From assembly GCA_016788115.1 (NCBI GenBank), contig JAEURR010000006.1, forward strand, positions 310,001 through 374,000: 64,000 nucleotides of DNA, given 5' to 3'. Each line of letters starts with the position of its first letter. Positions within the stretch are counted from its first letter, which is position 1. This DNA comes from Chthonomonas sp. GTDB taxonomy: Bacteria > Armatimonadota > Fimbriimonadia > Fimbriimonadales > Fimbriimonadaceae. The notes beneath the pieces are model-generated. The model did not search any database. It saw only the letters and a list, made by a program, of their open reading frames with translations, and was not told the origin of the DNA. A program made the position numbers and the translations under genes. Shown one piece after another: positions 6,499 to 9,358 of this stretch.

Positions 6499-7593
6499 AT
6501 GAGTCAGCCTTACGAACGCGTCTATAACTTCTCCGCTGGGCCCTGCACACTGCCGGTTGCGGTGTTGGAACAGGTGCGCGACGACCTGATCAATTACAAG
6601 GGCACCGGTAAGAGTGTCATGGAAATGAGCCACCGTAGCAAAGCCTACGAGGCGATTATCGCGCAGACCGAGGCGGACCTACGAACGCTCATGGGCATCC
6701 CGGAGGCGTACAAGGTGCTGTTCCTCCAGGGGGGTGCAAGCCTGCAGTTCACCATGCTCGCGAACAGTTTCCTCCCCGCTGGTAAGACCGCCGAGTACAT
6801 CGTCACCGGAACTTGGGGCAAGAAGGCCGTCGAAGCCGCCCAGTTGGTCGGCAACGTAAAGGTGGTTTTCGATGCCAAGGCGGACAACTACAACCACGCG
6901 CCACATCTCACCGATTTGAACCTGAGCGCCTACGCCGCGTACGTCCATTTCACGAGCAACGAAACGATCCAGGGGGTCGATTTCTTTGCCGATCCTGCGG
7001 TCGCTGGCCGCGTGATTTGCGACGCGAGCTCCAATATCCTCAGTCGCCCGATGGACGTCAGCAAGTACTGCATGCTGTACGCAGGTGCGCAAAAGAATAT
7101 GGGACCGGCGGGCGTCACCGTCGTGATCATGCACGAGGACCTCATTCGCGAAGCACCGACCGGGCTGGCACCGATGCTGGACTACCGACTGCAGTCCGAG
7201 AACGGATCGATGTACAACACGCCGCCCTGCTTCAGCATTTACGTGATGGGGCTGGTTTACCAATGGACTCTCGCTCAGGGTGGCCTCACCGCCATGGCCA
7301 AGCACAACGCCGCCAAGGCCGGACTGCTCTACGACGCCATTGAAGCCTCGGGCGGGTTCTACGAAGCCCACGCGAAGCCCGCGAATCGGAGCCACATGAA
7401 CGTGACCTTCACCCTTCCGAGCGATGATCTGACGGATGCCTTCATCAAGGCTGCGAAGGAGAACAAATTCGAAGAGCTGAAGGGGCACCGGAGCGTTGGT
7501 GGATGCCGAGCCAGCATCTATAACGCGTTTCCGACCGAGGGATGCGAGGAGCTAGCCAGGTTCATGCGGGAGTTCGCCAGCGCGAACGGATAA
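6499..7593 (+). CDS. serC: Phosphoserine aminotransferase
   Basis: A 364-residue fold-type-I PLP enzyme converting 3-phosphohydroxypyruvate and glutamate to phosphoserine (serine synthesis; also used in pyridoxine synthesis in some bacteria). The start YNFSAGPCTLPVAVLE, the loop GTGKSVMEMSHRS and the PLP-lysine motif AGAQKNMGPAG near residue 198 are diagnostic; the C-terminus GGCRASIYNA is also typical. It begins 43 bases after the HIT gene. GAGG lies only 2 bases from the ATG, too close for a normal ribosome binding site. Confidence 0.96.
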   Translation: MSQPYERVYNFSAGPCTLPVAVLEQVRDDLINYKGTGKSVMEMSHRSKAYEAIIAQTEADLRTLMGIPEAYKVLFLQGGASLQFTMLANSFLPAGKTAEYIVTGTWGKKAVEAAQLVGNVKVVFDAKADNYNHAPHLTDLNLSAYAAYVHFTSNETIQGVDFFADPAVAGRVICDASSNILSRPMDVSKYCMLYAGAQKNMGPAGVTVVIMHEDLIREAPTGLAPMLDYRLQSENGSMYNTPPCFSIYVMGLVYQWTLAQGGLTAMAKHNAAKAGLLYDAIEASGGFYEAHAKPANRSHMNVTFTLPSDDLTDAFIKAAKENKFEELKGHRSVGGCRASIYNAFPTEGCEELARFMREFASANG

Positions 7594-7650
7594 AAACAGC
7601 AAAAATGTGCGGCACTTTTGCCCGAACGGCGACATAATTAAAGTAGGTCG

Positions 7651-8064
7651 ATGAAGACAAAGCTACGAAGGCTGATAGGGATACAAGTGGTATGGGCAAT
7701 TACGCTCGTCTGCGCGATCGCTCAGCCCATCGCAAATGCAGTAGCCTGTTGCAATCTTCCGATCCAGAGTAGAGAATGCGCTTGTTGTAGCGCACCCGCG
7801 CACAAGTCTACGGACGCGGCGTGCGAGATCAGCAGCGATTCCTGCGCTTCCTGCGCCATGTGCGCAGCAACCCCGGTGCCGGGCCCCGATCGATACGCGA
7901 TCGCGGTCGCACCAGACAATTCTCCTTTCACACTTCCGGCGGCTCCAGATCTGGGGATCAAGATCTCCATTCCCGAACCGCCGGTACAGGTCGGCTTTAC
8001 TCCATCCGTACAGCACAGTCACGGACCGCCGCCTGACCTTGGTCGCGCTCCACCCATCGCCTAG
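7651..8064 (+). CDS. Secreted Cys-rich protein, function unknown
   Basis: A 137-residue protein that I do not recognise. Residues 1-30 (MKTKLRRLIGIQVVWAITLV...) look like a signal peptide. The next ~45 residues hold a cluster of cysteines, many in CC, CxC or CxxC pairs (ACCN, CACC, CASCAMC), then a Pro-rich tail ending HSHGPPPDLGRAPP. The arrangement suggests metal binding or disulfide-rich periplasmic/surface function. It lies just before the metallothionein-like gene at 8134, and the two could act together. Upstream, CATAAT at 7633-7638 is 12 bases from the ATG. Confidence 0.6.
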   Translation: MKTKLRRLIGIQVVWAITLVCAIAQPIANAVACCNLPIQSRECACCSAPAHKSTDAACEISSDSCASCAMCAATPVPGPDRYAIAVAPDNSPFTLPAAPDLGIKISIPEPPVQVGFTPSVQHSHGPPPDLGRAPPIA

Positions 8065-8133
8065 CGGTCTTAACTCCGCGTACCCCATGTACGCCTGACC
8101 GCTCCAATGGAGCTAGAAACTAAGGAAACAACT

Positions 8134-8358
8134 ATGAAGAAGATGCTATTCGCCCTCGCAATGGGTGCCATGATGCTCGCTCCGGCCTTCGCCGGCTCGT
8201 CCAACGCCTCGTTCGCCGATGGATGTAAGGCCTGCGCCTGTTCTTGCAAGTGCTGCAAGGAAAACTGCAAGGCCTGCTGTGGCGACAAGTGCGGCGAATG
8301 CTGCAAGGACGGCAAGTGCGGAAGCGGTTGCTGTGGCGGCGGCTGCTGCGGCAAGTAA
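8134..8358 (+). CDS. Exported metallothionein-like Cys-rich protein
   Basis: A 74-residue protein with a clear signal peptide (MKKMLFALAMGAMMLAPAFA, cleavage after AFA or AFAG) followed by a Cys-packed domain: 17 cysteines in the last 46 residues, as CxC, CC and CxxCC groups spaced by Lys, Gly and Asp/Glu. This is the composition of a metallothionein, but with an export signal. AAGGA upstream of ATG 8134 fits a ribosome binding site and favours this start over an in-frame ATG at 8107. A strong hairpin terminator follows at 8378. A role in binding soft metals outside the cytoplasm is inferred, not shown. Confidence 0.75.
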   Translation: MKKMLFALAMGAMMLAPAFAGSSNASFADGCKACACSCKCCKENCKACCGDKCGECCKDGKCGSGCCGGGCCGK

Positions 8359-8377
8359 CAGCTCAACCTAGCTAACC

Positions 8378-8413
8378 AGAGGGCTGGTGCACTGAGTGCA
8401 CCAGCCCTCTTTC
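8378..8413 (+). terminator. Intrinsic terminator after the Cys-rich gene
   Basis: AGAGGGCTGGTGCACT and its exact reverse complement are separated by one base (effective loop of a few bases), followed by TTT. The 16-base stem is G+C rich. It lies immediately before the start region of speE. Confidence 0.85.
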
Positions 8414-8434
8414 GCGTGTCATACTCTCCGGGCC

Positions 8435-9358
8435 ATGAGTAGCGACGCAACTGGAATGTTCATCACCGAGACCCACACCGATGCAGCGATCTGGATGTTT
8501 CGGGTTTCAAAAATGCTTCTGGAGGGCCAAACCCAATTCCAGACGTATCAGATCTGCGAAGTCCCCCGATTCGGCAAGTCGCTGTTCCTCGACTACAACA
8601 TTCAGACTAGCCTCATGGACGAGCACGTCTTTCACGAGTGCATGTCCCAGCCAGCGATGACGCTCCATCCCAACCCGCGCAACGTCGTGGTCTGCGGAGG
8701 CGGCGAAGGCGCAACCCTTCGCGAAGCGCTCAAGCACAACACCGTCACCCATGCGACGATGGTGGATATCGACGGCGAACTCGTGGACATGGTGAAAGAG
8801 CATATGCCGGAGTGGCACCAGGGCGCGTTTGAAGACCCCCGCACCACACTCCTGCACCTCGACGCGCGCAAATGGCTTGAGGATCATCGAGGCAGTAACT
8901 TCGATGTCATCCTGTCGGACCTGCCCAACCCCCACGAAGAGGGCCCCGGCCAGATGCTCTTCACGAAGGAGTACTTCCAGATTTGCGCCGATGCGATGGG
9001 TGACGACGGCGTCCTCGCGCTCCAGGCGGGCACCGCTAACCAGAACTACCCAGAGTGCATGCTGAGTTGCATCAAGACTCTGCAAGAGATGGACTGCTTC
9101 GCCCACGTCGCAGGCTACTACGGCATCGTGACCACGTTCTTCCAGCCGTGGGGATTCGTCCTTGCCAGCAAGAAGCATGACCCACTTGCACTTACCGTCG
9201 AAGAGATCAAGCGGCGCTTCACCGAGCGCGGCGTGAAGACCCGCTACTACACCCCCGAATTCCACTCCGCAGTGTTCGCGTTACCGCCCTATCTGATGGA
9301 GCAATGGGACAAGGCGCGAGTGCTCACCGACTCCGATCCGTTTATCTGGACCGCATAA
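8435..9358 (+). CDS. speE: Spermidine synthase (polyamine aminopropyltransferase)
   Basis: A 307-residue enzyme transferring the aminopropyl group of decarboxylated S-adenosylmethionine to putrescine. The Rossmann SAM-binding motif VVVCGGGEGATLRE, the acidic VDIDGELV that holds the nucleoside, and the catalytic-region DLPNPHEEGPGQ (the family has D-x-x-D/N-P) are present; YFQPWGFVLASKKHDP is also typical. ATG 8435 is chosen because TACTCT ends 7 bases before it; no Shine-Dalgarno site is visible and the upstream in-frame start lies inside the terminator hairpin. Confidence 0.93.
   Translation: MSSDATGMFITETHTDAAIWMFRVSKMLLEGQTQFQTYQICEVPRFGKSLFLDYNIQTSLMDEHVFHECMSQPAMTLHPNPRNVVVCGGGEGATLREALKHNTVTHATMVDIDGELVDMVKEHMPEWHQGAFEDPRTTLLHLDARKWLEDHRGSNFDVILSDLPNPHEEGPGQMLFTKEYFQICADAMGDDGVLALQAGTANQNYPECMLSCIKTLQEMDCFAHVAGYYGIVTTFFQPWGFVLASKKHDPLALTVEEIKRRFTERGVKTRYYTPEFHSAVFALPPYLMEQWDKARVLTDSDPFIWTA

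Follow-up and report, generated by a model that had tools for sequence, protein, structure and literature searches.

A putative exported metallothionein-like peptide encoded behind a probable metal-sensing arrest leader in Fimbriimonadaceae

The window analysed here, a whole stretch of 64 kb from a Chthonomonas sp. genome, carries two small plus-strand genes flanked by serC and speE (window 6499-9358). The second gene, ORF2 (8134..8358; ATG 8134, TAA 8356-8358), encodes a 74-aa peptide that appears to be an exported metallothionein-like protein. Its translation is MKKMLFALAMGAMMLAPAFA followed by GSSNASFADGCKACACSCKCCKENCKACCGDKCGECCKDGKCGSGCCGGGCCGK, with the cut after residue 20 read by eye from the AxA motif. 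The first part (8134..8193) is a predicted Sec-type signal peptide, in which KK, a hydrophobic core and AFA ahead of G21 were judged by eye. The Cys region extends from C31 to C72 (8224..8349), and all 17 Cys are held within the last 46 residues, arranged in CC, CxC and CxxC motifs; ORF2 is rich in Gly and Lys and is without a Tat motif. No Phe, Trp or Tyr is present in the Cys region of ORF2 or in those of seven relatives, as is typical of metallothioneins. When all stop-free stretches of at least 46 aa across the 64 kb (798 including ORF2) were compared in segments of 46 aa, the maximum among the other 797 was 9 Cys. Since the next densest stretch has 9 Cys and relatives in other genera show the same layout, the Cys richness of ORF2 is not a product of chance. 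The gene is present in one copy in the host genome and is preceded by a Shine-Dalgarno-like AAGGAA at 8122..8127. The count of 17 Cys, the signal peptide and the separate ribosome-binding site had all been given in a preliminary description of this DNA, and our results agreed with it on these points. Its identification of the product as an exported metallothionein-like peptide is upheld by the signal peptide, the Cys density, the lack of aromatic residues and the relatives in seven further genomes, but Pfam and NCBIfam gave no match up to E 1, so no known metallothionein profile recognises the peptide and we call it metallothionein-like only.

Downstream of ORF2, a perfect 15-bp hairpin (8378..8410, plus strand) followed by a short U tract is a probable terminator or 3' stabiliser, and the 70-80 nt after the gene fold with about -33 to -35 kcal/mol. 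The hairpin described earlier as a very strong terminator is thus real, but its U tract is just TTT, so that a strict terminator scan did not call it. A comparable hairpin was found within about 70 nt of the gene in 7 of the 8 metallothionein-type loci, and that of G018 was shorter. An Rfam match to ncS01 (8329-8413), which overlaps the hairpin and lies far below the gathering score, was dismissed. Antisense to ORF2, a Pro/Gln/Leu-rich open frame of 126 aa (8070-8450, minus strand) most likely reflects the Cys codons on the opposite strand.

The first gene, ORF1 (7651..8064, plus strand), ends 69 nt upstream of ORF2 and encodes a predicted exported protein of 137 aa with 10 Cys and the C-terminus DLGRAPPIA. 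From its sequence, it is a probable metal-sensing arrest leader of ORF2. Residues C65-A-S-C68-A-M-C71 (7843..7863) form a candidate metal site, and the RAPP codons (residues 132-135; 8044..8055) lie three codons ahead of the stop. C45, C68 and RAPP were invariant across 23 aligned members of the ORF1 family. Published filters for CutF/CruR-like leaders select proteins of fewer than 150 aa with a signal peptide, PP in the last 15 residues and a close downstream gene on the same strand (PMC9973294); ORF1 passes them with 137 aa, a signal peptide read by eye and PP at 134-135, and its CxxC at 65-68 provides the Cys metal motif expected in the mature part, as a putative site. RAPPIA at the end of a small exported protein also corresponds to the RAPP/RGPP signature near the C-terminus of arrest peptides. 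Pfam gave no DUF2946 or other match to ORF1, and DUF2946 was also absent from 22 relatives. Neither a sigma-70 promoter near ORF1 nor a CsoR-type palindrome upstream of it was found. An inverted repeat between serC and ORF1 (7598-7622) has the appearance of a minus-strand terminator and could also be an operator.

The host genome contains Omp85, so that an outer membrane and a periplasm are likely. It also carries, elsewhere, a full-length RND transporter and a csoR-copZ-copA cluster (G000:C3:204644-205322), which is preceded by the CsoR-type palindrome ATACCCATTGGGGTAT, a likely CsoR operator. In the same genus, the speE gene of G001 follows an apparent SAM-decarboxylase (speD-like) gene, and this gene and its neighbour are missing from the window.

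Relatives of ORF1 were found in 30 of the 291 genomes of the phylum with the full profile, among which one or two of the weakest look false, and in 45 of the 291 with a profile from which the last 20 residues, and hence RAPP, had been removed. Among the 27 loci checked from the RAPP-free search, 24 ended in RAPP; the remaining three comprised a variant with LAPP, a truncated frame and a RAPP with a 3' extension. That RAPP reappears in matches to a profile lacking it argues well for conservation of the motif, with the reservation that the rows of the profile were taken from members carrying RAPP and that a few of the 27 loci almost duplicate those members. The relatives mostly stand directly upstream of metal genes (YHS, YtkA, CusB-like), usually with 54-93 nt to the downstream start. 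The 22 scanned genes directly downstream contained 15 YtkA, 11 YHS and 2 CusB-type HlyD domains, and CsoR, an HMA domain at the start of a CopA-like protein and DUF305 were further neighbours, each in at least one locus; csoR and copA were found once next to an ORF1 relative.

Direct searches with ORF2 gave one clear relative (G026), with 46% identity that includes the linker after the signal peptide, and a two-row profile added G089 and G066. In these three genomes and the host, a Cys-rich exported protein with a RAPP end precedes the peptide by 38-69 nt. A scan of every ORF1 locus for open reading frames dense in Cys gave four more metallothionein-type pairs (G018, G021, G073, G075), and reading three leftover matches gave a weaker ninth pair with fewer Cys (G064). 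An exported Cys-rich peptide is therefore the next gene after ORF1 in nine genomes including the host, and it is metallothionein-like in eight of them; the nine belong to five genera (g1, g16, g17, g20, g25) of one family. ORF2, which had been treated as a stand-alone gene in the preliminary description, is instead the second of a two-gene unit headed by ORF1. The relatives of this layout in seven further genomes all have a similar N-terminus. The Cys spacing, by which the preliminary description proposed to test its reading, is kept in part: Cys density and the CC, CxxC and CxC motifs recur, but the exact spacing does not, and the number of Cys ranges from 13 to 25. The relative in G021 (L130 1894-2300) is longer (134 aa, 25 Cys) and consists of repeated CKDCxCG-type units. 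In G073 (L131), a Trp codon replaces the stop after RAPPVS, by which ORF1 becomes about 20 residues longer and overlaps the metallothionein start; this may be a real change or an assembly error.

Other candidates were rejected. The low-scoring matches L003, L024, L025 and L026 were out of frame or unrelated, the PHROGs matches were at chance level, and L047 (G017) and L048 (G036) were left out as exported peptides with no RAPP leader within the 400 nt read upstream. Genome contigs, viral contigs, plasmids and PDB sequences yielded no ORF2 relatives, of which low-complexity filtering may hide some; ORF2 is either narrow in sequence or has relatives concealed by such filters.

Between the two genes, an RNA hairpin is predicted at 8063..8103 (plus strand), with a 5' arm that starts inside the stop codon of ORF1, within the expected footprint of a stalled ribosome. 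In RAPP arrest, the codon of the third residue occupies the P-site and that of the fourth the A-site (PMC12992588, PMC10987492); the footprint was taken as 16 nt from the P-site, and downstream pairing was compared with dinucleotide shuffles. The RAPP region proved to be coupled to the initiation region of the next gene. Pairing between the footprint and the downstream RNA reached 85.7 in the eight metallothionein loci against 45.5 +/- 8.3 after shuffling (0/400), and 400 in 34 loci of the ORF1 family against 216 +/- 17 (0/200). When the 5' arms were swapped between loci, with identical arms collapsed to 30, the duplex weakened from -13.5 to -8.95 +/- 0.47 kcal/mol (0/5000 permutations); the counts from shuffles and permutations should not be read as strict probabilities, as the loci are related and not fully independent. 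Since swapping weakened the duplex in 5000 of 5000 permutations, each arm matches its own partner, a covariation-like signal. The region of the second Pro codon of RAPP is predicted to pair with the Shine-Dalgarno site in 25 of the 34 loci. That codon is CCT in 23 of the 34 loci, against 28 of the 165 Pro codons in six window genes, a rough comparison in which the window represents one genome.

Blocking the footprint raised the predicted mean openness of the Shine-Dalgarno site from 0.26 to 0.46, and 18 of the 34 loci gained more than 0.2. In six of the eight metallothionein loci, a closed site (0.03-0.35) was predicted to open to 0.38-0.77, and the strongest locks were predicted for G066 and G021. 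At the window locus, the hairpin does not cover the Shine-Dalgarno site, the predicted openness of which was 0.76 in the free RNA and 0.84 with a stalled ribosome, and the hairpin was modestly better than shuffles (10/200 shuffles as stable; 4%). The G089 site was likewise predicted to be open with or without a stalled ribosome. Because the site of the window is open in both states and its fold is modest against shuffles, ORF1 is held to be the arrest leader of this locus with moderate confidence, and from the folding predictions the chance of Shine-Dalgarno unlocking at the window locus appears well below even.

The reading that we prefer, to which we give a probability of roughly 0.6 on the evidence of the sequences, is that ORF1 and ORF2 constitute a two-gene copper-response unit of an arrest leader and an exported Cu(I) metallothionein-like peptide. 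Accordingly conceived, the ORF1 nascent chain, Sec-exported and Cys-rich, would sense copper and stall its own translation at the C-terminal RAPP. The halted ribosome would alter RNA folding just downstream and in this way set the translation of ORF2, as in SecM and in CutF of Rhodobacter capsulatus, and we infer that copper induces ORF2. The product would be exported and, as a probably periplasmic peptide, use its Cys thiolates to bind several Cu(I) or other soft metal ions. The Omp85 and csoR-copZ-copA genes of the host are in keeping with this reading. ORF1 points to copper and translational control because it is predicted to be exported, is Cys-rich and has an arrest-type RAPP end; RAPP by itself does not suffice for arrest (PMC12992588). 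The peptide of the preliminary description is real and, in its context, the effector of a probable copper-sensing arrest-leader unit.

The closest published counterpart in layout is CutF, a Sec-exported copper sensor with a Cys motif and a Pro-rich end, by which copper induces cutO (PMC9973294). Control is exerted through a stem-loop over the Shine-Dalgarno site of cutO (PMC9973294). Like CutF of the cutFOG operon, ORF1 is a small protein predicted to be Sec-exported that combines a Cys metal motif with a C-terminus rich in Pro, and both loci have a short intergenic region, a stem-loop and a downstream metal gene, putative in the case of ORF2. The downstream gene of CutF, however, is a multicopper oxidase and not a metallothionein-like peptide, ORF1 has more Cys, a RAPP in place of a general Pro-rich end and no DUF2946 match, and the stem-loop of the window leaves the Shine-Dalgarno site of ORF2 uncovered. 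CruR of Bordetella pertussis is a CXXC/RAPP leader by which copper silences the following gene with the help of Rho (PMC9426467), and in vitro work has demonstrated arrest at its RAPP (PMC12992588). ORF1 resembles it in predicted export, a CXXC-type motif, a C-terminal RAPP and its position as first gene of a putative metal operon; the differences are that copper turns a transporter off through Rho in CruR, that the CruR intergenic region has 162 nt, and that Cys and RAPP are separated by 45 residues in CruR and by 63 in ORF1 (C68 to R132). Since DUF2946 is not matched and the Cys-to-RAPP spacing differs, ORF1 is best regarded by its layout as a relative in kind of CutF and CruR, not as a demonstrated family member. 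SecM, ApdA, ApdP and the RQH family share with ORF1 a RAPP-like C-terminal arrest motif (PMC10987492), and in SecM and one RQH member ribosome stalling unfolds a stem-loop that covers the Shine-Dalgarno site of the following gene (PMC10987492). These proteins act as monitors of protein export that regulate sec or yidC genes, whereas ORF1 is Cys-rich and its family precedes metal genes.

The choice of copper rests on the neighbours of ORF1 relatives and not on the window locus, where serC and speE flank the pair. It is unlikely, but conceivable, that ORF2 is an exported metallothionein for Zn, Cd or Ag and that ORF1 senses the same metal, since Cys-rich peptides also bind these metals and YHS and YtkA domains leave the identity of the metal undecided; the CsoR, CopA-type HMA and CusB-type neighbours and the copper response of CutF and CruR, the studied proteins of the same layout, argue for copper. 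The direction of control could also be the reverse, with arrest sustaining transcription past a Rho site and copper shutting ORF2 off as in CruR, or the two genes could be linked by mere translational coupling. Such an arrangement would agree with the RAPP of ORF1, which is that of CruR and not a plain Pro-rich end (PMC9426467), and with the predicted open Shine-Dalgarno site of the window. We nevertheless hold it to have a small chance, as the intergenic region has 69 nt against 162 nt in CruR, base pairing between the RAPP region and the Shine-Dalgarno site across the family agrees with unlocking, and a metal-binding sponge repressed by copper would make little sense.

For ORF2 itself, a disulfide-rich structural, redox or antimicrobial role in place of metal binding is improbable. 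The Cys of an exported ORF2 may meet an oxidising compartment, and the ORF2 profile is weakly similar to a venom peptide (E 5.7). Against this stand the CC, CxC and CxxC repeats, the odd number of Cys (17), the Gly/Lys-rich sequence without aromatic residues, the variable Cys number and spacing among relatives, which is unlike disulfide frameworks, and the position behind a leader family tied to metal genes. The metallothioneins SmtA, MymT and PmtA are comparable to ORF2 in being small and Cys-rich with no hydrophobic core expected; without its metal, a metallothionein has no predictable fold. They are described as cytosolic, PmtA being also found at the surface by no known route (PMC7558416, PMC11237414); ORF2 differs in its predicted N-terminal signal peptide and in matching no metallothionein profile. 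A precedent for exported copper storage is Csp1, which holds many Cu(I) through Cys (PMC7558416), but Csp1 carries a Tat signal and is pre-folded as a four-helix bundle, and ORF2 is short, Gly/Lys-rich and equipped with a Sec-type signal.

An accidental pairing with independent transcription of ORF2 is very improbable: the pair is patchy, being present at fewer than half of the ORF1 loci, and the two other members of the host genus yielded no ORF2 relative, but all three true relatives from the ORF2 search are immediate downstream neighbours of ORF1, in genera and chromosomal contexts that differ, and the five peptides of G018, G021, G073, G075 and G064 were reached through ORF1, not through ORF2.

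For the family as a whole, we tentatively propose, at slightly less than even odds, that these proteins are lineage-wide metal-sensing arrest leaders in which the RAPP Pro codons themselves lock the next ribosome-binding site, so that stalling is unlocking, and that five genera have combined this switch with a metallothionein-like peptide that is exported, which would give them an extracytoplasmic copper sponge induced at the level of translation. In published surveys, the genes that follow CutF-like or RAPP leaders encode RND efflux, TonB, PCuAC, YcnI and similar proteins; the surveys searched name no metallothionein in this position, and a full-text literature search combining 'metallothionein' and 'arrest peptide' returned nothing relevant and no published description of the pairing. 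If the proposal is true, bacteria can use a nascent exported sensor to increase their extracytoplasmic metal buffering by control of translation. The ORF1 family would then offer a stall-to-unlock RNA switch in 34 natural versions open to simple reporter assays, and these bear on whether selection has given arrest codons an additional part in RNA pairing. Some ORF1-YHS operons are near-identical across genera: L072, L073 and L074 (G023, G007, G031) share 99.4% of their DNA over 3.2-3.4 kb, and L057 and L058 (G009, G095), from different genera, share 99.95% over 2.2 kb, which suggests a recent transfer of copper operons or a shared contamination.
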